Positions 2,891-17,958 of a stretch of 64,000 nt of DNA are shown here, in pieces. The translations under genes and the position numbers were made by a program. The stretch lies in contig DASTDE010000004.1 of NCBI GenBank assembly GCA_035710515.1, positions 62,001-126,000 on the forward strand, read 5' to 3'. The notes below the pieces were generated by a model, which saw only the letters and a list, made by a program, of their open reading frames with translations, made no database searches and was not told the origin of the DNA. Source of the DNA: Candidatus Rubrimentiphilum sp. GTDB taxonomy: Bacteria; Vulcanimicrobiota; Vulcanimicrobiia; Vulcanimicrobiales; Vulcanimicrobiaceae. Positions within the stretch are counted from its first letter, which is position 1. Each line of letters opens with the position of its first letter.

Positions 2891-3403
2891 CTAACTCGCT
2901 TTCTTGGCGGCCTTCTTAGCCGGCGTTCCTCGTCTGATCGTTTCAATCTTGTATTTGACGATGCCGCGCGGCGTGGCCACGTCGACGGTTTCGCCCTTCT
3001 TGTGCCCGATCAGCGAGCGGCCCAAGGGCGACTCGTTGCTGATGCGCTGGTTCACCGGATCGGCCTCGGCCGACCCCACGATCCAGAACTCGTGGGTCGA
3101 ACTCGTCTTGACGTCCTTCACTTTGACCGTCGCGCCGAGGTGGACTTCATCGGCGGCGTACTCCGACTCGTCGATGAGTCGCGCGTTGCGGATCATCGAT
3201 TCGAGCTTCATGATGCGGCCCTCGATGAACGCCTGCTCCTGCTTGGCGTCCTCGTACTCCGCGTTTTCGCTCAGGTCGCCGAACTCTTTGGCCTGACGAA
3301 TGCGGTCGTTGACTTCCCGGCGGTGGACGCTCTTCAGGTCGTCGAGCTCCCGCTCCATTTTTTCGAGACCTTCTTTAGTGAGGACGATCTCTTTATCGTT
3401 CAC
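2891..3403 (-). CDS. greA: Transcription elongation factor GreA
   Basis: Rescues backtracked RNA polymerase by stimulating transcript cleavage through the secondary channel. The 170-residue product has an N-terminal coiled coil (about residues 8-75, LTKEGLEKMERELDDLKS) bearing the acidic tip in DLSENAEYEDAK. The C-terminal FKBP-like domain follows (VNQRISNESPLGRSLIGHKK). I chose GTG at 3403 because a good ribosome-binding site (GAGGGG) lies six bases upstream and the protein then has the usual GreA length. A lysine/alanine-rich tail (TPAKKAAKKAS) extends the usual end. Confidence 0.95.
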   Translation of the reverse strand: MNDKEIVLTKEGLEKMERELDDLKSVHRREVNDRIRQAKEFGDLSENAEYEDAKQEQAFIEGRIMKLESMIRNARLIDESEYAADEVHLGATVKVKDVKTSSTHEFWIVGSAEADPVNQRISNESPLGRSLIGHKKGETVDVATPRGIVKYKIETIRRGTPAKKAAKKAS

Positions 3404-3469
3404 GTGGTACCCCTCTGCCCGCAAGGTGATCCTTCGGCGACTGGAGTGACAAGGAGAAAGCGCCCCCGT

Positions 3470-4858
3470 TCAGGGCGCCGTCGCCGTTGGTTCACCCTGT
3501 CCGGGGGGGTCGCCTGCCTTCCGGAGGGAGGCCCACCCGCGCCACACGGCCAGCGGAATGCCGATGAGGATTCCGCCAGCGGCATAGCCCTGCGACGTGT
3601 GGTCTTCGAAGCGCACGGTCGCCCCCAGGACCAGTGCCAGCGCCGCCATTCCGGCGGCCGGAATCACCACCCCGGTCCAGCGGAACGATGGCTGCGACCA
3701 AAACGTCCGGACTGCGGCCGCCGCGGTGAAGACGAACAGCAGGCCCAAAAAGAGCGAGCTGCCGTTCAAAACGAGCGTCAATTGGGCTGCGGCGGTCGGG
3801 GAGAGGCCCGTGAGCAACTCGAGACAGGCGACGAACAGCGCTACCGCCACGAGCGACCAAAACGGCTCGTCGCGCTTGTCCAGCGTTCCCAACACGCGCG
3901 GCAGAACGCCGTCGCGGCCCATGGCAAAGACCGATCGCGAGAGGTAGAGCAGCGTCGTCCAGAGCGCCGAGCTCGTCGAAACGAGGACGGTCGTGAGGAT
4001 CACCGGCCGCCACGCCGGCGCGCCCAACAGATCGGAAACATAACGCATTGCGTCCGCCTGATTGGCGGTAAAGCCGCGCAGCGTGCCGAGATGGCCGAAC
4101 GCGAACATGGCAAGTGCGAGCACCGCGGTCGTTACGAGCAGTCCGGTGATGCCGCCGTGTCCCGAAGCACGCGGATCTTTCGCAACTTCTTCCGACGTGG
4201 CGGCGGAGAGCTCCCATCCGTCGCTCATCCATACGCCCAGCGTCATCGCGTAGATGAAACCAAGGCTGCTAAATGCGAGCGCCTTCACGTCGCCGGGCGA
4301 TGCCGGATGCGGTGCGCCGGTGTGCGGTGAGAACAACGCGACGATCGCCGCGACGGCAATAACACCGATCTCCAGCGCGAGCGCCGCCATCGTTACGATC
4401 GTCGTCGGACGAACGCCGGCGTACAGGAGCACCGCGCTGCCCGCAATCCAGGCGGCGCCGACGGCCGCGTCCCAGATCGGGTTCTGCGCGCGTTGCGGCG
4501 CGAGTAAATCCAACGTGTAAATGCCCGCCGGCACCGCTGTCGCCATCGTCGCGAACACGTTCGAGAGGATCAGCAGCCACGCGCCATACGCCCCCACGTA
4601 CGATCCGAAGGCCATGCGAATCCACGAATACGACGAGCCTGCATTCGGCGCGACGCGCGACAGTTGCGCGAAACCAATCGCGATGCACAGCATGATTGCC
4701 GAAACGGTAACCAATGAGAGCGGCGCAAACGTGCCGGCGGCGACGATCATCGGACCCATCGTCGAAGCTAGACTGTACGCCGGCGCCATCGACGCGGACG
4801 ACAATACGGAGATGTCGAAAAAGCGCAGGACGCGCGGAAGGTGTCTCGCTGCCATCAC
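3470..4858 (-). CDS. APC-family amino acid permease
   Basis: A 462-residue integral membrane protein with about 12 hydrophobic segments, resembling the APC amino acid/polyamine/organocation superfamily. The N-terminal segment (SMAPAYSLASTMGP) and the following GSSYSWIRMAFGSYVGAYGAW correspond to the substrate-binding TM1 and TM3 region. Substrate cannot be read from sequence. It lies downstream of the aminotransferase/acyl-reductase group on the same strand after an 87-base gap containing a dispersed repeat, so it may transport an amino acid or amine used by that group, or may be unrelated. Confidence 0.8.
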   Translation of the reverse strand: MMAARHLPRVLRFFDISVLSSASMAPAYSLASTMGPMIVAAGTFAPLSLVTVSAIMLCIAIGFAQLSRVAPNAGSSYSWIRMAFGSYVGAYGAWLLILSNVFATMATAVPAGIYTLDLLAPQRAQNPIWDAAVGAAWIAGSAVLLYAGVRPTTIVTMAALALEIGVIAVAAIVALFSPHTGAPHPASPGDVKALAFSSLGFIYAMTLGVWMSDGWELSAATSEEVAKDPRASGHGGITGLLVTTAVLALAMFAFGHLGTLRGFTANQADAMRYVSDLLGAPAWRPVILTTVLVSTSSALWTTLLYLSRSVFAMGRDGVLPRVLGTLDKRDEPFWSLVAVALFVACLELLTGLSPTAAAQLTLVLNGSSLFLGLLFVFTAAAAVRTFWSQPSFRWTGVVIPAAGMAALALVLGATVRFEDHTSQGYAAGGILIGIPLAVWRGWASLRKAGDPPGQGEPTATAP

Positions 4859-4868
4859 GTGGCCCTAG

Positions 4869-4913
4869 TTGTCATCCTGAGGTATCCCTTCGACACTGCT
4901 CAGGACAGGCTCC
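4869..4913 (+). repeat. Dispersed repeat copy
   Basis: Contains the family core TTGTCATCCTGAGGTATC joined to an inverted CCTTCGAC...GCTCAGGACAGGCT half. It lies in the short gap between the permease start and the preceding gene. Confidence 0.7.
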
Positions 4914-4945: not shown

Positions 4946-5848
4946 CTATAGCTCGATCACCCGTGGTTTGAGATGCAATTCGTGCAAAACGCGTTCGTAG
5001 TCTTCGGCGGTTACGTCGCTCCATTTCTTGCCCAGCAACGCGAGGAGCGCGGCCTCGACGACGTTCGTGCCGAACGAGCGACCCTGAAAATCCGGCGTAG
5101 TCGTAATGAGCATCTTCACACCGCGCGCGCGCAGCTCGTCGACGTCCTTCTCGGTCACCGTGTTGGTCAACACGATCTTCCCGTGCAAGTCGTCGGGCAT
5201 GAATTGGCGCATGAAATGAAAGTCGCCCGCGATGATTTCGGCGTCGCGATAGTACTGCGGATATTTGGGCTCCGGCGGTTTGTCTTGTTTCTTGCCGGTC
5301 GGATAGAAGAATTGAAAAGGCAGCTTGCACGCGTCAGGCAGATACTTTTCGGCCATCTCTTCGAACTCGTGCAAGCCTTTGACCGGCTTGTCGAGGTCGA
5401 GTGCGAAGATGAAATCGCCGAAGAGCACGTCCGCACCCGCGTCGACAAGTGCTTGCGCCATGCCGAAGCGATCCAGGGCGCTGACCATAAGAACTTTCTT
5501 GCCTTTGAGGTCGATGCCCAGCTCTTCTTGCATAAACCGTACGGCTTCGCGTTCGAGCGTGTTCTTTAGGCCGCTGCCGTCCACGACGGGCGTAACCTTA
5601 GCAGCCTCCAGCAAGCGCAAGCCGTCGCGCAACGCAAAGCGATGTTTGCCGGCATAGAGATACACGTCGATACCGCCCAAGCCGATCGCATCGACTTTGC
5701 CGTCCAGCTCGTGCACCATGCGGATTGCTTCGTCGAGCTTGCCGTCCGTGCCGACGCGTGAGATCTCGAAGTCTTCGCCGAGCAGATTTACCTTTGCGCT
5801 ATGATCGCGCGCACTGGAACCAAGCGAAACGGATACAACCTTCTTCAT
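4946..5848 (-). CDS. Quinate/shikimate dehydrogenase-like protein of unknown function
   Basis: A 300-residue cytosolic protein. It resembles sequences labelled 'quinate 5-dehydrogenase' in databases, from memory of the MKKVVSVSLGSS start and the blocks GLGGIDVYLYAG and PVVDGSGLKNTLER. I know of no biochemical proof for that label. The central KGKKVLMVSALDRFGMAQAL block suggests a Rossmann-like nucleotide fold. The start at 5848 overlaps the stop of the membrane-protein gene by four bases (ATGA), which argues against longer in-frame starts. It is the last gene of the coupled acyl-ACP-reductase-like cluster, so it probably acts on a product of the same pathway. Confidence 0.65.
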   Translation of the reverse strand: MKKVVSVSLGSSARDHSAKVNLLGEDFEISRVGTDGKLDEAIRMVHELDGKVDAIGLGGIDVYLYAGKHRFALRDGLRLLEAAKVTPVVDGSGLKNTLEREAVRFMQEELGIDLKGKKVLMVSALDRFGMAQALVDAGADVLFGDFIFALDLDKPVKGLHEFEEMAEKYLPDACKLPFQFFYPTGKKQDKPPEPKYPQYYRDAEIIAGDFHFMRQFMPDDLHGKIVLTNTVTEKDVDELRARGVKMLITTTPDFQGRSFGTNVVEAALLALLGKKWSDVTAEDYERVLHELHLKPRVIEL

Positions 5849-6486
5849 ACTCTTGCCGTCACTGCCCAGATGAGGGTCTGGGAAAAAAGCAGCGCGATCG
5901 CGCACGCTCCGAGCGAGCCTGTCTTCCACCTCAAAAAAGGAAGTGAATAATAGCCGATGTATGCCGCCGTCAAAATCCACGAACGGGTTGTTAGGAATTC
6001 AGAGAGCGCAAAAGAGCATGAGACAACGACTGCCGCCACCAGTGGTGGCATCCACTGTGCAAGTCGCGTTTGAAGCCATCCGAACAGCAGGAGAGTAATA
6101 GAAGCCGCCCACAAGCCGGCTGGGATTAGCAGAGCAAGAGAGTAGTGCCCGAAACGCCAGTGGGCGAGGATCAGCAGGCAGATACCCACGAGCGTCCCTG
6201 CCGCTCCAAATAGGATGCCGACGAGTATCATTCTTGTCAGATCGAACAAGCCAAGTAGCGCCTCTCGCAATTCCCGCCCGGCTAGAACAAAGACACCACC
6301 GATCATCAGAACGCGAATCACAGACTCGATCAGCGTTTTCTCTTGGTAGGGGACGTGTCTAACATCGCCCCTGATCAAGACCAGCCAGGTCGCCACCAAA
6401 ACCGAAAACAGAACACCAATTCTGGCACGTGAGATGAATCGGAGGTTGATCGCCTCGGGATCAGCCATGGCCAACGTAGCGCTCAC
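5845..6486 (-). CDS. Integral membrane protein, unknown
   Basis: A 213-residue protein with about six or seven predicted membrane helices (around residues 22-40, 56-75, 85-110, 115-140, 150-170, 175-205). I do not recognise the family. The EExxxR and FxxxH motifs of CPBP-type proteases are absent. It overlaps both neighbours by four bases (ATGA at each end), so its translation is coupled to the acyl-ACP-reductase-like gene before it and the quinate-dehydrogenase-like gene after it. Base composition is slightly less GC-rich than its neighbours. It could be a transporter or membrane anchor for the pathway product, but that is only a guess from context. Confidence 0.6.
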   Translation of the reverse strand: MSATLAMADPEAINLRFISRARIGVLFSVLVATWLVLIRGDVRHVPYQEKTLIESVIRVLMIGGVFVLAGRELREALLGLFDLTRMILVGILFGAAGTLVGICLLILAHWRFGHYSLALLIPAGLWAASITLLLFGWLQTRLAQWMPPLVAAVVVSCSFALSEFLTTRSWILTAAYIGYYSLPFLRWKTGSLGACAIALLFSQTLIWAVTARV

Positions 6487-7604
6487 GCGACGGCGCTCCG
6501 GCGTTCTTCCGCGGCTTTGCGGATGGCGGCGATCTTCTCCGGCGTAATCGCCGCGTCGAAGGCGCGCATGTCCGCGAGCGTAAACCCGTCCTTGGCTGCG
6601 AGCTCTCCGATCTCCACGACTTTGTTAACGTCGATACCCCGGCCAATCGAAAACGATTCGAGACGGTTTTCGAGCGCCAGCACCATCGTCTCCGACATGC
6701 ATGCGAGCGCAGTGCGCGGCGGCAGATTCAAGTCAAATTCTTGACCAGGTTCGCGAACGCGCTCGAAATGCGGATTGCCCGGCAGCAGCATATTGCCGCC
6801 CTCGACCACCAGCACGTCCGGACGCTCTTGCGCGACGCGGCGGCTCACGTCGTGCGGCAGCGACAACTCGCACACAACTGCGCCGGTTTGCAGATCCTCG
6901 GGTTCGATTACGTCCTGCGTCGAGCTGGTTGCCGTCAGAATCAGCTGCGCTTGGCGAACAGCGGCGGACAAATCCGTGGTGTACGACGATTCGGCCGGCA
7001 ACTCGCCGGACATGGAGTCGAAGAATTTTGCCAGCCGCGTATTGTTGCGTGCGACGAGTATTATGCGTTTCACGCGGGGCGCGATCAGTTTGACGCAAGC
7101 CGAGCCGATCGAACCCGTTGCGCCGACGACCACCGCGGTGGCGTTTTGCGGATCGATGCCCATCTCGTCCGCGCCGCGAAAAAGACTGGCGATTCCCGCG
7201 GAGATTGTCAACGAATTACCGGTCGTGACCGGAATAGGCGAACGTTCGGCCACCGTCACGCCTCCGTCGCCGACGACTCCGGTAAATGCACCGAGTCCCG
7301 CTACCCCCGCGCCCAGCTCCGCCCCGATCTCGATCGCGCGCACGATTCGCTCGTAGACTTTCTCACGCGGAAAACTGATGATCTGTTCGGGCAAGAGTGC
7401 CGCCGAAACGAACCAGCCTTCGGTTTCACGCCCGTCGGGAGTCCGTATGCCGGTAACGTGGGCGGCATTCCAGGCCGGCATCCACTCCATGATCTTGCGC
7501 AAAATGGCCTCGCCTTTGCCTTTTGCGCTCGGCTCGTAGCGCACGACGTCTTCGAGCGAGAGTGGATGGATGACGAAGACGAATTTTGCGGTGTTCGCGC
7601 TCAT
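6483..7604 (-). CDS. Acyl-ACP reductase (AAR)-like protein
   Basis: A 373-residue protein that aligns by eye with cyanobacterial long-chain acyl-ACP reductase, which reduces acyl-ACP to fatty aldehyde through a cysteine thioester. Shared blocks are LGAFTGVV (104-111), TTGNSLT (127-133), the dinucleotide site VVVGATGSIGSAC (158-170), ARNNTRL (185-191) and ACMSETMVLALENRLESFS (301-319). Cys302 occupies the place of the catalytic cysteine. No aldehyde-deformylating oxygenase is nearby, unlike in cyanobacteria. Instead it is translationally coupled to an SRPBCC protein and a membrane protein, with a class III aminotransferase just upstream. An automated pipeline may name it shikimate dehydrogenase from the Rossmann fold alone. 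True acyl substrate unknown. Confidence 0.7.
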   Translation of the reverse strand: MSANTAKFVFVIHPLSLEDVVRYEPSAKGKGEAILRKIMEWMPAWNAAHVTGIRTPDGRETEGWFVSAALLPEQIISFPREKVYERIVRAIEIGAELGAGVAGLGAFTGVVGDGGVTVAERSPIPVTTGNSLTISAGIASLFRGADEMGIDPQNATAVVVGATGSIGSACVKLIAPRVKRIILVARNNTRLAKFFDSMSGELPAESSYTTDLSAAVRQAQLILTATSSTQDVIEPEDLQTGAVVCELSLPHDVSRRVAQERPDVLVVEGGNMLLPGNPHFERVREPGQEFDLNLPPRTALACMSETMVLALENRLESFSIGRGIDVNKVVEIGELAAKDGFTLADMRAFDAAITPEKIAAIRKAAEERRSAVA

Positions 7605-8041
7605 GCGGCGCCTTCGGCTTCACGTTTCAGCGCGGCGAGCATCATCTCGCTGTTTTCGCGAACTTTGCGTTCGAGTGTCGGGCCGATCAGCTCCGCCAGC
7701 GTCGGCACGCCAAAATCATAGTCCACTCCCAGCACGACGTGCGTCTTGCCCTCGTCTTCACTAAACGACCAGCTGCCTTCGAACTTGTCGAGGTCGCCCT
7801 CCAAGAGCTTGTAGTCAATCCGGAGCTTCTCGTCGTCGAAACGATCGTCTTCGGTCCATTCGATCGGCGCTTCCTCAACCAGCGTCTTCCAACGGGTGAG
7901 CGCGCCGTCCGGCCGGCGCTCGAGCACGGTGATCGATTCCACGTCCGGCATGAACTCCGGAAAGCGTTCCTGCTGCTTGGCCAGTTCGTAGACGGCGCGA
8001 GGCGGAGCGGCGATCACAATGGATGTTTCAACGTACGGCAT
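7601..8041 (-). CDS. SRPBCC (polyketide cyclase/START-like) protein
   Basis: A 146-residue soluble protein with the helix-grip pattern of the SRPBCC/coenzyme Q-binding superfamily. It starts with MPYVETSIVIAAPPRAVYEL, then has FPEFMPDVESITVLER, strands ending in HVVLGVDYDFG, and a long C-terminal helix. Such proteins bind hydrophobic ligands in a central cavity. I chose the ATG at 8041 because the domain begins there; an upstream in-frame extension overlaps the aminotransferase gene and has no domain sequence. Its stop overlaps the reductase-like gene start by four bases (ATGA). In this context it may carry or release a lipophilic aldehyde or acyl intermediate. Confidence 0.8.
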   Translation of the reverse strand: MPYVETSIVIAAPPRAVYELAKQQERFPEFMPDVESITVLERRPDGALTRWKTLVEEAPIEWTEDDRFDDEKLRIDYKLLEGDLDKFEGSWSFSEDEGKTHVVLGVDYDFGVPTLAELIGPTLERKVRENSEMMLAALKREAEGAA

Positions 8042-8055
8042 CGAGTGACTTGCGC

Positions 8056-9297
8056 CTAGAGTGCGCCGAGCTTTTCGCGAGCGGTGGAGAGTCCGGCCGC
8101 AAGCGCCGCCAGCGCTTGCTCGATCTCGCTTTGGGTAACGATCAGCGGCGGTTCCAGGCGAATCACGCGCTGCATATTCAGCGTCCACGCCGCGGTCACT
8201 CCATGCTTGAGCATTTCGGAGATAATCCAGCCGCCGTAGCCTTCGTTGGTCAGTTCCACGCCGACGAGCAGCCCCAACCCCCGCGCGCTGCGGAGAATCT
8301 CCGGATAGTCTTTGCAGAGTTCTTGCGCGCCGGCGAGCAGCTGCGCCCCACGCTCGCGCGCGTTCTCAACCAAGTGCTCTTCGACGAGCGCGTCCATAGC
8401 GGCGAGCGCCGCCGCACAGGCGATCTCACTGCCGCCGAAGGTGGACGTATGCATGACGGGGTGCTTGGAGTACGCGGCATTCCACACGGACGGACGCGTG
8501 ATATAAGCACCTACCGGAATGACTCCGCCCGATAGCCCCTTCGCGAGCGTCATCACGTCGGGAACGACGTCGTCGCGATTACATCCGAAGAGCATGCCGC
8601 AGCGGCCCAGGCCGGTCTGCACTTCGTCGGCGATCAGCAGTGCGCCGGTGCGATCGCAGATCTCGCGGACCTCGCGCAGATATCCGAGGGGCGGAACGTT
8701 GATACCGCCTTCGCCTTGCACCGGTTCGACGATGAACGCGGCCGCGTCGCGAAGCGCTTCTTCCAAGCCGGCGGTCGAGCCGAATTCGAGATGCGCTACA
8801 TCCTCGAGCAGCGGCGCGTACGTGTCTCGAAAATACTCCCGTCCGCTGGCGGAAAGCGATCCGAGCGTTTTGCCGTGAAAGGCGTCGCGCGTCGCGACGA
8901 TTCTGCGCCGTTTTGTGGCGGCGCGCGCGAGTTTAATCGCGCCTTCCACCGCTTCGGTTCCGCTGTTGCAGAAAAAGGAAATCTGCAGATCGCCCGGCGC
9001 GAGCTCCGCGAGGCGCTTGGAAGCGCGACCAAGCATGACGTTAAACATCGTCTTGCCGGAGAGAGCCATTACATCGAGCTGGGCTTGCACGGCGGCGACG
9101 ACTTTGGGATGCCGATGGCCGAGCGTGAAGACGCCGTAGCCGCCGGCGAAATCGAGATAGGCCTTGCCGTTCTGATCCCAGATGGTGCAGCCTTGCGCGC
9201 GCACTTCCACCGGACTGCCGGCGACCTTCATCACGCGCGCCAACGTCGGATTTACGTAGAGCTTGTAATTCTCGTACGTCTCGCCGTAGAGGTCCAT
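8056..9297 (-). CDS. Class III PLP aminotransferase (ornithine/putrescine type)
   Basis: A 413-residue fold-type I, subgroup II aminotransferase. Visible motifs are CNSGTEAVEGAIKLAR (110-125), AFHGKT (139-144), ADEVQTGLGRCG (223-234) with the PLP-ring aspartate at 224, and the Schiff-base lysine K253 in TLAKGLSGG. The closest named groups are acetylornithine, putrescine and 4-aminobutyrate aminotransferases, which move amino groups between terminal amines and aldehydes or keto acids. It follows dusB with no gap and precedes the SRPBCC gene by 14 bases. Beside an aldehyde-forming reductase it could aminate the aldehyde to a primary amine. That role is inference. Confidence 0.85.
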   Translation of the reverse strand: MDLYGETYENYKLYVNPTLARVMKVAGSPVEVRAQGCTIWDQNGKAYLDFAGGYGVFTLGHRHPKVVAAVQAQLDVMALSGKTMFNVMLGRASKRLAELAPGDLQISFFCNSGTEAVEGAIKLARAATKRRRIVATRDAFHGKTLGSLSASGREYFRDTYAPLLEDVAHLEFGSTAGLEEALRDAAAFIVEPVQGEGGINVPPLGYLREVREICDRTGALLIADEVQTGLGRCGMLFGCNRDDVVPDVMTLAKGLSGGVIPVGAYITRPSVWNAAYSKHPVMHTSTFGGSEIACAAALAAMDALVEEHLVENARERGAQLLAGAQELCKDYPEILRSARGLGLLVGVELTNEGYGGWIISEMLKHGVTAAWTLNMQRVIRLEPPLIVTQSEIEQALAALAAGLSTAREKLGAL

Positions 9298-10308
9298 CTA
9301 GGCGGCGACGGGGCGTTCGAGCGCTGTAATAGCTTCTTCGACCACGGCGATGACGTCTTGCGCGCGATCGATCCGCATGATGCGCTCGCGAAGAACGGCG
9401 GCGCCGGGAATGCCTTTGAAATACAGCGCGAGGTGTTTACGCATCTGCGGAACCGCGCGCGACTCTCCGAGATCGTTCAGCATCGCTTGGTAGTGCACGT
9501 GAACCGCGTAGCGCAAACGATCAGCAGCGGACGGCACCGGCTGCGCGGCGCGTCCTTCCATGAGATCGCGAATCTGCGAGATAAGCCAGGGATTGCCGAG
9601 CGTTGCGCGGCCGAGCATGATCGCGTCGACGCCGCTCTCGCGCATGCGTTGCATCGCCTGATCGGGATCGCCGAGATCGCCGTTGCCGATTACCGGCAGG
9701 TCAACGGATTGCTTGAGGCGCTTGATGTGCTCCCAATCTGCGTTTCCTTTATAGAACTGTCTGGCAGTACGGGCGTGAAGCGTCAAAGCTTGCACACCCA
9801 CCTTTTGCGCTCGCTGGGCTGCTTCAATGTAAACAAGCTTGTCTTCGCTCCAGCCCAGGCGCATCTTCATCGTCACCGGACAATCAACGGCCTCAACAAC
9901 GGCACGCATGATGGCTTCGCAGCGGTCTAAGTCGCGCAAACAGGCCGAACCGCCGTTGATTTTTGTAACCTTCGGCGCGGGACAGCCGAAGTTTATGTCA
10001 ACGATGTCGGCGCCGCACTCGCGCACGATCTTCGCGGCTTTAGCCATCACGGCCGGATCGTCGCCCCACAACTGCGTGCTGACCGGCTTCTCGAGTCCGT
10101 GCTGGTCGATCATCTCCATGGTGCGCTTCGCGCTGGATGCATACTGCAGCGCGTTGGCAGACACGAACTCCGTCACCGTCAGGCCTAAACCGAAGGGCTT
10201 ATAGAGCGCTCGCATTGTGCGGTTGGTCACGCCCGACATGGGCGCCAGAACCAAAGGCGGCCAAATCTGGTGCGGCCCGATGACGAGCGGGGCTACGGTG
10301 CGCTGCAT
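9298..10308 (-). CDS. dusB: tRNA-dihydrouridine synthase
   Basis: FMN/NADPH-dependent reduction of D-loop uridines in tRNA. The 336-residue TIM-barrel protein shows LAPMSGVTN (21-29), the active-site cysteine C109 in NFGCPAPKV, MKMRLGW, LHARTARQFYKGNADW and GNGDLGDPDQA, all Dus family signatures. The C-terminal helical tRNA-binding domain (MRKHLALYFKG) is present. Its stop codon immediately precedes the aminotransferase start, making it the first gene of the 4946-10308 run. In many bacteria dus genes head unrelated operons. Confidence 0.93.
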   Translation of the reverse strand: MQRTVAPLVIGPHQIWPPLVLAPMSGVTNRTMRALYKPFGLGLTVTEFVSANALQYASSAKRTMEMIDQHGLEKPVSTQLWGDDPAVMAKAAKIVRECGADIVDINFGCPAPKVTKINGGSACLRDLDRCEAIMRAVVEAVDCPVTMKMRLGWSEDKLVYIEAAQRAQKVGVQALTLHARTARQFYKGNADWEHIKRLKQSVDLPVIGNGDLGDPDQAMQRMRESGVDAIMLGRATLGNPWLISQIRDLMEGRAAQPVPSAADRLRYAVHVHYQAMLNDLGESRAVPQMRKHLALYFKGIPGAAVLRERIMRIDRAQDVIAVVEEAITALERPVAA

Positions 10309-10365: not shown

Positions 10366-10438
10366 GCGCCCGTAGCTCAATTGGATAGAGCAGCTCCTTG
10401 ACTCAGGGCTGGATGGGGTTCGAGTCCCTTCGGGCGAG
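10366..10438 (+). tRNA. tRNA-like gene, imperfect (anticodon possibly GAC)
   Basis: The D arm (GCTC-AATTGGATA-GAGC) and T loop (TTCGAGT) are clear. The acceptor stem GCGCCCG/CGGGCGA pairs at six of seven positions and resembles bacterial tRNA-Arg. Anomalies are G-A at pair 1:72, T-T at 49:65 and C-A at 31:39. The anticodon loop read as TTGACTC gives anticodon GAC with an unusual T37. An alternative stem AGCTC/GGGCT leaves a 9-base loop. CCA is not encoded. It may be a functional but divergent tRNA or a pseudogene. Confidence 0.55.
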
Positions 10439-10512
10439 CCTCTTGCTTTCGGGTAGGGCCTCGGTTAAACTCAATGCGAGTCAGAGAGCGAGTCTTCCAA
10501 CAGAGCTACAGT

Positions 10513-13947: not shown

Positions 13948-14315
13948 GTCCGCGCGCGCTGCTGCAGCTCGTGGATGAACTCCACAATCTCGCTCTGATC
14001 GGGAGCCGCAATCTGCGTGAAGGCGATCCCGTGCGCGAACTGCTGCCGCGAAGCATCGAAGAATGAGAGCACCACGCGGCCGCGCACCATCATCTCCCGC
14101 TCGCCTTCAGGTAATCGAAAGCGCAGCGTGATGTTCTGACCGGCGCTTAAATCGTTTTTGGTAATAACGCGCATCCCGCCGCCGCTCAGATCGACCACAC
14201 CGCCATCTAATGCCGCATCGTCGCCCGCTACCGTGACGGCTACCGGAAAATCAACGGCTGCGCGAAAGAAGCGCCGCTGCTGGGGACCCGAACCCGCCGG
14301 TTGTTCTGTGCTCAC
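13944..14315 (-). CDS. PilZ domain protein
   Basis: A 123-residue protein with a PilZ domain, a cyclic-di-GMP-binding beta barrel. The two binding motifs are visible: RRFFRAAVDFPV (RxxxR type) near residues 14-25 and DLSGGGMRV (D/NxSxxG) near residues 42-50. It starts with GTG overlapping the stop of the PLP enzyme gene (GTGA). It may link second-messenger level to a surface or motility process; no partner is evident. Confidence 0.85.
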   Translation of the reverse strand: MSTEQPAGSGPQQRRFFRAAVDFPVAVTVAGDDAALDGGVVDLSGGGMRVITKNDLSAGQNITLRFRLPEGEREMMVRGRVVLSFFDASRQQFAHGIAFTQIAAPDQSEIVEFIHELQQRART

Positions 14316-15604
14316 GCTCGATCACGCTTCTCTCGCGAAAGCGAACCGCCCTGCACTGCGCGCGCCGCAAAAAGCGCACCTAACACCGCATGTTCCGCCA
14401 CAACGCCGCCCTGCAGATAGACTTCGAACGGCTCGCGCAGCGGCGCATCGCACGATAACTCGATGGTCGCTCCACTGATAAACGACCCGCTGGACATAAC
14501 GACCGGCTCCGCATAACCGGGCACACTCCCAGGTTCGGGACGAAACCGTGCGTTGACCGGCAGCGCCGACTGCAATCCTTGCGCGAACAGACGGATGCTG
14601 CGAGCGGAACCTAAACGGATCGCCTGCACGATGTCGGTGCGCGCAGCGCCCGCGGCCGGATCGACGGGATAGCCGAGTTCGTCGAACAGCGCCGCCGCAA
14701 AATCGAGTCCGCGCAGACATTGTTCTACGATCAGCGGCGCCATGAAGAGCCCTTGCAGAAACGCGCGGCCGAAGCCGAGCGACGGTCCCAGCGCGTCGCC
14801 AAGGCCGGGTGCGTACAACCGATCGGCAACGCGCGCAACCAGGTCGCTCCGGCCAATCACGTAGCCGCCGGCGGGGGCCAAAGATCCGCCGAGATTTTTT
14901 ATCAGCGATCCGATAGCCAGATCGGCTCCGATATGCGTCGGCTCACGGTCTTCGACGAGTTCGCCGTAGCAGTTGTCAACGATGATGGCGACGTCGGGGC
15001 GCTTCTTCTTGATCTGTGCAAAAAGCGAGGCGCACTCCGCGATCGAAAGCGAGGGCCGCGGCGCGTATCCGCGCGATCGCTGCACGAACACGGCAGCGAC
15101 ATCCTTGTCATGGTGAGGTATCGGGTTGTCATCCTGAGCCTGTCGAAGGGCACCCTGAGGTATCGAAGGGTCGAGCTCCTTATACTGCATGCCCGCACGC
15201 ACGAGCGAATTCGGCGCGTCCGCGATAGCATTGCGCAGCGTGTCATATGGCCGGCCGGTGAGGCTGAGCAGCGTTTTTCCCGGCGGCACGCACGCGGCGA
15301 TCGCAGTAACGATCGCGTGCGTGCCGCTGACGAACGACAGACGCGCCAGCGCCCGTTCGGCGCCGAAGATCCGCGCGAGGAGCGCCTCGTATTTGGCGCG
15401 CGCCGCGTCGTCGTATCCATAGCCGAGCGTTCCGGAAAAATCGCTTTCAGTGACGCCTTCTTCCAAGAAAGCCGCCATCACGTTGGCTTTCACGCGCTCC
15501 TGCGCAGCGTAGGGTATACCGGCAACGCGTTCTTGCGCGCGCAGCGCAGCTTCGCGAACGGGCCCGGCCACTCCGAAACGCTCGCACAGCAGCTGGACGT
15601 TCAC
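14312..15604 (-). CDS. Methionine gamma-lyase family PLP protein with repeat insertion
   Basis: A 430-residue fold-type I PLP protein of the 'methionine gamma-lyase family/aluminium resistance' group (YnbB-like), whose reaction is not established. Visible are ARLSFVSGTHAI, VFVQRSRGY, IIVDNCYGELVE (PLP aspartate) and the lysine of GSLIKNLGGSLAP. I chose GTG at 15604 because it overlaps the EIIC stop (GTGA) and gives the family N-terminus. Between YKELDP and DVAAVFVQRSR, an extra stretch reading SIPQGALRQAQDDNP is the translation of the dispersed repeat at 15126-15173, inserted without breaking the frame. Confidence 0.8.
   Translation of the reverse strand: MNVQLLCERFGVAGPVREAALRAQERVAGIPYAAQERVKANVMAAFLEEGVTESDFSGTLGYGYDDAARAKYEALLARIFGAERALARLSFVSGTHAIVTAIAACVPPGKTLLSLTGRPYDTLRNAIADAPNSLVRAGMQYKELDPSIPQGALRQAQDDNPIPHHDKDVAAVFVQRSRGYAPRPSLSIAECASLFAQIKKKRPDVAIIVDNCYGELVEDREPTHIGADLAIGSLIKNLGGSLAPAGGYVIGRSDLVARVADRLYAPGLGDALGPSLGFGRAFLQGLFMAPLIVEQCLRGLDFAAALFDELGYPVDPAAGAARTDIVQAIRLGSARSIRLFAQGLQSALPVNARFRPEPGSVPGYAEPVVMSSGSFISGATIELSCDAPLREPFEVYLQGGVVAEHAVLGALFAARAVQGGSLSREKRDRA
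15126..15173 (+). repeat. Dispersed repeat copy inside a coding gene
   Basis: Reads TTGTCATCCTGAGCCTGTCG, AAGGGCACCCTGAGGTATCG, AAGGGTCG on the plus strand. It contains both halves of the family consensus and is translated on the minus strand as part of the PLP enzyme. Confidence 0.85.
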
Positions 15605-16674
15605 GCGGTGGCGGCCTCGTGTTGCTCGTACGCGCGAACGAAAGGAAAGTAGAGCACCGTCGCCAGCGCGATGTTGACCACCACCAGCACGACGGCACGC
15701 CAGTCCAGCGTCGCCAGAAAGACCGCCAGCGGCGAGGGCACCGCCGCCGGAATGTACGTATACGCGCGTGCGACCAAGCCGTTCGCGGTTGCGAAATACG
15801 CGACGGTTGCCGTTATCAGCGGCACGCCGACAAACGGAACTATCAGAAATGGATTCAAGACGATCGGCAGTCCGAACAGCAGCGGCTCGTTGATGTTGCA
15901 AAGCGCCGGCAGAATCGTGGCTCTGGCCAACAGCCGCAAGCGAGGCGCGCGGCTAAAAAACAGCAGAAATGCAATCGGCAGCGTCGCGCCCGCTCCGCCG
16001 GGAAAGATAAAGAGAAACAGCGAGACGACCACGATGTGCGGCAGCGGCATGTGGTGGATAAAGGCGTCGGTATTTTGCACTTGGAGCGCGAGATAGAGCG
16101 GCGTCACGACCGCCGCCAGCGTCGCCGGACCGTGAATGCCGATAATCCACAACGCCGTCTCGAGCGCGACGATCGTCATCAGCGCCGGATACGAATCGCC
16201 CAACCTTCCGAGCGGTGCGAACCATGCGGTCAGTTCATTCGCGGGCGATACGTGCAGGGCAAAGATCGCCGCAAGCACGGCGAGCACCAGGATCGCTCCG
16301 AGCGCTTGTCCGCGGATGCCCGCGCGGCGGCCGAGCGAGCATGCTCCGGCGACCAGCAGCGCCAGCACGATCGCCAGAAACAGCGCGACGCCGCCGAGCG
16401 TTTTCAAATACGCGATCGGCTGATCGAAAGAAAACGGCCGCGGAAGCGCCAGGGCAAAAGCGACGACCGTCACGCCGACGACGAGCCCGCGCATCAGCTG
16501 TAAGTGCAGGGCCAAGCGATACGAGAGAATGATCGCCAGGGCAATGCCCATCACGCCGAACGCCGGCAACTCGGCCGCGACCAGCCGCTGCAAGAACGAG
16601 CCCGGCGCAAACGCCATCAAAACGGGCAGGGCCGCCAGCAACGCAAAAAAACTTCGCGGCAAGCTCTCGCGCAC
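15601..16674 (-). CDS. PTS EIIC-like membrane permease, orphan
   Basis: A protein of at least 357 residues with about 10 membrane helices, resembling the lactose/cellobiose EIIC family of the phosphotransferase system. The key blocks are IIGIHGPATLAAVVTPLYLA, FIFPGGAGATLPIAFLLF and ALCNINEPLLFGLPIVLNP, where the NEP motif binds sugar in EIIC proteins. No EIIA or EIIB gene is nearby. Conserved-looking sequence continues upstream of the GTG at 16674 (LLAALRAFGDLPALIAV) as far as the lexA stop, but without ATG/GTG/TTG, so the start may be non-canonical (CTG at 16722). Translationally coupled to the PLP gene. Confidence 0.75.
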   Translation of the reverse strand: MRESLPRSFFALLAALPVLMAFAPGSFLQRLVAAELPAFGVMGIALAIILSYRLALHLQLMRGLVVGVTVVAFALALPRPFSFDQPIAYLKTLGGVALFLAIVLALLVAGACSLGRRAGIRGQALGAILVLAVLAAIFALHVSPANELTAWFAPLGRLGDSYPALMTIVALETALWIIGIHGPATLAAVVTPLYLALQVQNTDAFIHHMPLPHIVVVSLFLFIFPGGAGATLPIAFLLFFSRAPRLRLLARATILPALCNINEPLLFGLPIVLNPFLIVPFVGVPLITATVAYFATANGLVARAYTYIPAAVPSPLAVFLATLDWRAVVLVVVNIALATVLYFPFVRAYEQHEAATA

Positions 16675-17929: not shown

Positions 17930-17958
17930 GAGCCTGTCCTGAGCATTGTCAAAGGGCG
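17930..17958 (+). repeat. Dispersed repeat copy, degenerate
   Basis: AGAGCCTGTCCTGAGCATTG then TCAAAGGGC, a diverged copy of the right half of the family consensus. Confidence 0.55.

Follow-up and report, generated by a model that had tools for sequence, protein, structure and literature searches.

Enzymes that convert an acyl thioester into an amine by way of an aldehyde have been characterized mostly from accessory antibiotic and alkaloid clusters. PigE, a thioester reductase joined to a transaminase in the 2-methyl-3-n-amylpyrrole (MAP) branch of prodigiosin synthesis, acts on an acyl thioester to give an aldehyde that is then transaminated, and channelling in this enzyme has been proposed by analogy with glutamyl-tRNA reductase (PMC8341465). 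TamH of the tambjamine pathway converts a C12 acyl group on acyl carrier protein (ACP) via the aldehyde to a fatty amine (PMC9594044), KecF has been proposed to perform both thioester reduction and transamination (PMC6498172), and fusion proteins from Pseudomonas and thermophiles exhibit transaminase activity on aliphatic aldehydes (PMC10829540). Here we analysed a 64,000-nucleotide window of Candidatus Rubrimentiphilum sp. (Eremiobacterota; assembly GCA_035710515.1, contig DASTDE010000004.1, positions 62,001 to 126,000), which encodes a class III aminotransferase (AT), an SRPBCC protein, a reductase resembling acyl-ACP reductase (AAR) and a protein designated QDH, from its first description as quinate-dehydrogenase-like. 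On balance, their sequences favour the view that these four core genes are a split counterpart of the PigE/TamH reductase–transaminase, which would turn acyl-ACP or acyl-coenzyme A (CoA) into an aldehyde and then into a primary amine. The chemistry is already known; what is new is an ancient split form fixed as phylum-wide core metabolism, with two conserved uncharacterized partners.

The reductase, the aminotransferase and the SRPBCC protein

Among the NCBIfam models, the reductase matched the N-terminal part of PigE (2.1e-63); its match to cyanobacterial AAR was weaker (1.5e-26). Sequence matches in the PDB included PigE (4ppm, 9e-40) and AAR (6jzq, 2.9e-18), and the catalytic cysteines align. 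A preliminary description, made from the letters of the window and its open reading frames, had noted the catalytic-cysteine context of AAR, and this could be extended: Cys302 aligns with PigE and with cyanobacterial AAR (Cys294 of SeAAR) and is invariant in 98 of 98 relatives, as are the glycines G161, G164 and G167 of the GxxGxxG motif. An AlphaFold2 model (predicted local distance difference test, pLDDT, 89.6) superimposed on AAR 6jzq with a Z score of 35.2 over 326 residues at 2.5 Å. Beyond the AAR-like group the next fold scored 13.7, and shikimate dehydrogenases approximately 13. The AAR fold together with the invariant Cys302 indicates that the protein is, as judged from sequence and predicted structure, an AAR-fold thioester reductase and not a shikimate dehydrogenase.

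Pfam Shikimate_DH does fit the NAD domain of the reductase above its cut-off (38.1 vs 24.3 bits), as would be expected if the protein were an ordinary member of that family in an accidental neighbourhood. This explanation is hardly conceivable, since it is contradicted by the whole-chain fold and by Cys302. An assignment as shikimate or quinate dehydrogenase was ruled out by the fold, the cysteine and the tree; the AroE profile gave 19.8 vs 248 bits. In the tree the reductase groups with other Eremiobacterota and with split Actinomycetota members, apart from PigE and the fused forms, although the AAR and AT trees contain long branches (cyanobacterial AAR and two fused rows) as well as several forks with weak support, so that their deep order is unsure.

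The AT matched the putrescine aminotransferase profile PRK11522 (2.3e-128) and the C-terminal half of PigE (3e-123), and the lysine that binds pyridoxal phosphate (PLP) is present in 62 of 62 sequences. Its tree places it with other Eremiobacterota and split Actinomycetota proteins and apart from Escherichia coli PatA. These NCBIfam scores fell below the respective model cut-offs: the AT reached 428.7 bits against the PRK11522 equivalog cut-off of 612, the reductase 93.6 bits, far below the 449.7 of TIGR04058 (cyanobacterial AAR), and the two separate proteins 214.9 (reductase) and 412.9 bits (AT) against the 850 of the PigE model NF053554. The SRPBCC gene is kept beside that of the AT in two phyla.

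The absence of an aldehyde-deformylating oxygenase (ADO) from the cluster, pointed out earlier, extends to the class: none was detected in 41 genomes by a search that matched the Synechococcus control. An alkane product is therefore unlikely, and the ADO pathway was ruled out. In genome G106 a second, divergent AAR homologue with approximately 28–31% identity lies away from the operon (L050:9306-10229).

QDH, an AAR-fold protein with an apparently altered active site

In profile searches QDH matched no Pfam family, and neither Shikimate_DH nor the NCBIfam AroE model recognized it. Its predicted model (pLDDT 91) shows a two-domain Rossmann-like fold, which is closest to AAR (Z 14.4) and to the AAR-like 'TAD' domain of carmabin (9e50, 14.3), followed by glutamate dehydrogenase (11.0) and shikimate dehydrogenase 2hk7 (9.7). 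These results lend no support to the quinate-dehydrogenase-like label, and QDH is probably not a quinate dehydrogenase. Profile–profile comparison of QDH with AAR gave no match; because fold comparison alone links the two proteins, common descent is not claimed. A comparison with a viral fold library returned no informative match.

In a by-eye match of secondary-structure elements between the QDH and AAR models, an invariant Asn262 of QDH appeared to occupy the position of the catalytic cysteine of AAR, Glu265 corresponded to Glu305 of AAR, and the GxxGxxG motif was altered, with SALDRFG (123–129) in place of GATGSIG. The apparent exchange of the cysteine and the changed glycine motif suggest that QDH is unlikely to act as an AAR-type thioester reductase. 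Nevertheless, at 53–96% identity across the phylum, it is the best-conserved member of the set. At least 578 relatives were found in a scan of the genome collection, among them proteins of Aquicultor, Geothermocultor and Oleimmundimicrobium (Actinomycetota) and of Carboxydothermus, Desulfofundulus and Pelotomaculum (Bacillota), and none was found on plasmids. QDH thus represents a widespread protein family without a matching Pfam model. Among open-licence papers we found none on QDH, on split AAR outside cyanobacteria or on the carmabin 'TAD' domain.

Conservation and regrouping of the core genes

Loci were counted from profile searches of stop-to-stop frames, simple calling of open reading frames being noisy in these GC-rich genomes. 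Among the good genomes, AAR was detected in 68 of the 70 belonging to the class, and QDH in 81 of the 85 belonging to the phylum. The order AT–SRPBCC–AAR–QDH on one strand was found in 63 of 68 Eremiobacterota loci; two of the five exceptions are contig ends, two have the AT elsewhere in the genome and one lacks SRPBCC nearby. Within the phylum the core genes are near-universal, single-copy and vertically inherited.

The membrane gene, counted as a fifth member of the cluster in the preliminary description, did not share this conservation. Most relatives lack it at this position, and this is so even among congeners, whose AAR and QDH genes can overlap directly; it lies next to AAR only in the window genome and one congener (43%). 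It is a lineage-specific insertion and not part of the core; its GC content at third codon positions is 0.61, against 0.73–0.83 in the neighbouring genes. The APC permease occurs near QDH in some members of the class only. Both had been suggested to move product or precursor, and both were dropped as core parts on the grounds of their absence or patchiness in the survey. Genes inserted amid the core genes in single lineages have no common theme. Between AAR and QDH, one Eremiobacterota family has a gene for an exported LolA-like protein (Pfam LolA 9.9e-07; L077:4212-5081), and another locus has one for an exported protein without a Pfam match (L096:10179-10964).

In Actinomycetota the same four genes were encountered in a different arrangement. 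Nine loci hold all of them as QDH–AT–SRPBCC–AAR and, where the contig reaches far enough, lie mostly near coaX, often with a helix-turn-helix (HTH) regulator, and near greA-lysS. Other Actinomycetota have QDH–AAR at the coaX/greA-lysS site and an AT–SRPBCC pair elsewhere; in three loci a CDP-alcohol phosphatidyltransferase gene comes after this pair. Among 159 sampled Actinomycetota genomes, 18 contain QDH and AAR, two QDH only, one to three AAR only and the rest neither (Fisher p 1e-18 to 1e-20, not corrected for relatedness). Such regrouping and co-occurrence argue further against an accidental neighbourhood of a shikimate dehydrogenase. In addition, an AAR homologue is present in each of the 21 genomes with QDH that were tested from outside the phylum; that of G150 is part of a fused aminotransferase–AAR protein. 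The neighbourhood survey that had been proposed at the outset shows the four core genes together in most Eremiobacterota loci and in the nine Actinomycetota loci. For these genes none of the findings that would have spoken against the cluster was made: the reductase does not fall among true shikimate dehydrogenases, its cysteine is in place and the genes co-occur in other genomes.

In Bacillota, Desulfotomaculia and Carboxydothermus typically encode a split AAR in the order coaX–dusB–[HTH regulator]–AAR–greA–lysS. QDH lies away from AAR, and in Desulfotomaculia genes for an SCP2 protein and an APC permease often come after it. The SRPBCC protein was found in none of the Bacillota genomes tested. 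An ordinary AAR is present in 37 of 41 Desulfotomaculia genomes and QDH in 39 (36 of 38 by search, the remaining three genomes having entered the sample via their QDH loci). The four genomes lacking an ordinary AAR carry an aminotransferase–AAR fusion of 880–907 amino acids, and in two of them the old site still holds an AAR, but a divergent one. The fusion thus stands in for the ordinary split AAR in four of the five sampled genomes, which ties AAR to amination even where no aminotransferase is its neighbour. By inspection, the HTH protein preceding the fusions resembles the regulator family of the coaX–greA–lysS site; this family had no match in the Eremiobacterota loci.

These arrangements bear on a different division of labour, in which AAR and QDH form the functional unit, delivering an aldehyde or alcohol for an ether or plasmalogen-type lipid, and AT and SRPBCC are a module of their own, housed in the same operon in two phyla. 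The retention of both genes without SRPBCC in Bacillota and the separate QDH–AAR and AT–SRPBCC loci of some Actinomycetota would agree with it. However, two phyla have AT and SRPBCC in the AAR operon, in differing gene orders, and aminotransferase–AAR fusions replace the split AAR in some Bacillota. We therefore consider this division rather unlikely.

Organization of the window locus

All five open reading frames of the preliminary description were recovered on the minus strand at the positions first reported (Table 1). Junction inspection confirmed the 14 bases between AT and SRPBCC and the ATGA overlaps of SRPBCC with AAR and of the membrane gene with QDH, whereas the overlap of AAR with the membrane gene, also described as ATGA, is GTGA. 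Furthermore, dusB and AT meet in TAGATG with 0 bases between them, a junction not mentioned before.

Table 1. Positions of the core genes and their neighbours in the window, and of fusion and regulator genes in other loci (L numbers).
Feature	Position	Strand	Evidence or remark
AT, class III PLP aminotransferase	8056-9297	minus	Pfam Aminotran_3 1.7e-98
SRPBCC protein (START-like, polyketide cyclase / lipid transport)	7601-8041, ATG at 8041	minus	Pfam Polyketide_cyc 7.1e-20
AAR-like, predicted AAR-type acyl-thioester reductase	6483-7604	minus	NCBIfam PigE 2.1e-63; Cys302; GxxGxxG 161-167
QDH, uncharacterized AAR-fold protein	4946-5848	minus	fold comparison of predicted model; no Pfam match
Membrane protein, weakly CPBP/Rce1-like	5845-6486	minus	Pfam/NCBIfam matches all below cut-off
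dusB, ancestral neighbour, outside pathway assignment	9298-10308	minus	TIGR00737 351 bits, above cut-off
APC-family amino acid permease, patchy neighbour of QDH	3470-4858	minus	Pfam AA_permease_2 1.9e-23
greA, first of greA-lysS pair bordering the block in all three phyla	2891-3424	minus	
Desulfotomaculia aminotransferase–AAR fusions	L208:3496-6159, L209:3287-6007, L210:5549-8185, L211:4639-7275, L217:5558-8197		directly after HTH regulator
HTH regulator, Actinomycetota and Bacillota	L144:2596-3222, L160:7447-7998, L225:2159-2776		overlaps or precedes QDH or AAR at coaX–greA–lysS

A 23-base element, CCTGTCCTGAGCNNNGTCGAAGG, occurs at 4887-4909, between QDH and the permease gene, and at 17933-17955 (0 and 1 mismatch; 0.01 expected by chance). 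The sole tRNA gene of the window, tRNA-Val (GAC), lies at 10366-10440, just upstream of dusB and on the strand opposite to the operon. Further upstream, near the coaX region, a PLP protein of the Met_gamma_lyase family (Pfam PF06838, 9.4e-119) is encoded at 14312-15901.

Upstream of the block, panC-coaBC-coaX are found in the window and in much of the class. Class III aminotransferases carry out the transamination of malonate semialdehyde to beta-alanine, and the operon might accordingly act on a short polar substrate, for instance a malonyl thioester that yields beta-alanine via malonate semialdehyde for PanC and CoA synthesis. In line with this idea, panD was not found with two approximate probe sequences in 0.86 of the 2.54 Mb of the window's genome. 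On the other hand, Carboxydothermus carries panC-panD close to AAR, outside the class panC and coaBC are not neighbours, coaX stands beside dusB-greA-lysS in Bacillota too, and the SRPBCC fold suggests a hydrophobic ligand. A beta-alanine pathway is thus distinctly improbable.

Proposed pathway and comparison with known systems

The pairing of the reductase with an ornithine/putrescine-type aminotransferase, on which the amine proposal was originally built, fits a route from acyl thioester via aldehyde to primary amine. According to homology and the conserved residues, the AAR-like protein would accept the acyl group of an acyl-ACP or acyl-CoA at Cys302 and reduce it with NAD(P)H to the aldehyde, which the PLP-dependent AT would convert into a primary amine with an amino acid as donor. 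The SRPBCC protein might bind or shuttle the hydrophobic aldehyde or amine, and QDH might either partner AAR or act on its product; both roles are speculative.

Several observations weigh against this split reductase–transaminase. Most Bacillota possess AAR and QDH without SRPBCC or an adjacent aminotransferase, part of the synteny is plain vertical inheritance of the greA-lysS region, and the Actinomycetota co-occurrence test is uncorrected for relatedness. Moreover, the AT groups apart from PigE and the fused forms, and its score against putrescine aminotransferase slightly exceeds that against PigE, which leaves room for a different substrate.

The near-universal presence of the operon in the phylum suggests that its product is probably not an antibiotic but a structural or house-keeping molecule, for example a lipid that bears an amine. 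The product may be a long-chain compound or an amino-lipid, and the CDP-alcohol phosphatidyltransferase and SCP2 genes that lie nearby in some loci are a hint of a lipid. In cultured Vulcanimicrobium the polar lipids were reported as unidentified (PMC9758169), and for some such lipids of cultured Eremiobacterota the operon offers a testable guess. Eremiobacterota thus probably make an undescribed amine-bearing molecule as standard metabolism. More tentatively, they might have in common with those Actinomycetota and Bacillota that carry these genes a core pathway, as yet undescribed, that leads to an amine-bearing lipid or cofactor. QDH would then be a new AAR-fold enzyme or an obligate subunit that has lost the thioester-reductase site and is conserved more strongly than AAR itself. 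As a separate observation, a Leisingera plasmid locus (L219:2779-10186) encodes a LolA-like protein, an aminotransferase fragment, a protein of 1111 amino acids with an aminotransferase end, AAR and AMP-binding domains, and an MMPL transporter, and resembles an amine-lipid cluster that includes export genes.

The nearest characterized relatives of the reductase and the AT work in specialized metabolism (PMC8341465, PMC9594044, PMC6498172), and plasmid-borne PigE homologues lie in pig clusters. A prodiginine, tambjamine or koreenceine-like metabolite as product is nonetheless highly improbable: the core genes are distributed as described above, their AAR and AT fall outside the PigE clades, and no prodigiosin-type neighbours (PigD, methyltransferase, ACP, PigH) were found in the window or in the loci of relatives. 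The split form as a near-universal core of a phylum suggests that this chemistry predates its known uses and is more basic than these.

The preliminary description knew of no pathway with this set of genes. This holds for the full set but not for its core, as PigE, TamH, KecF and the Pseudomonas/Thermincola fusions join both domains. PigE shares with the window pair the same two domains by sequence (4ppm), the catalytic cysteine and the proposed chemistry; however, it is fused and belongs to an antibiotic cluster with PigD, whereas the window pair is split, part of the core genome, accompanied by SRPBCC and QDH, and placed in a separate clade. TamH likewise combines an AAR-like domain with a class III aminotransferase, but is fused in the domain order opposite to PigE and lies in an accessory cluster with its own acyl-activating TamA. 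KecF and the fusions of PP_2782, Thermaerobacter and Thermincola unite an aminotransferase with a COG5322/AAR domain and a mapped cysteine; they too differ from the split window pair, and the Desulfotomaculia fusions resemble this KecF/PP_2782 type. Cyanobacterial AAR (6jzq, TIGR04058) has the fold, the cysteine and the NADPH motif of the window reductase but ADO as its partner. Finally, glutamyl-tRNA reductase with glutamate-1-semialdehyde aminomutase likewise couples a cysteine-dependent reductase to a PLP enzyme, although its substrate is tRNA-bound glutamate and the sequence likeness is confined to the NAD domain.

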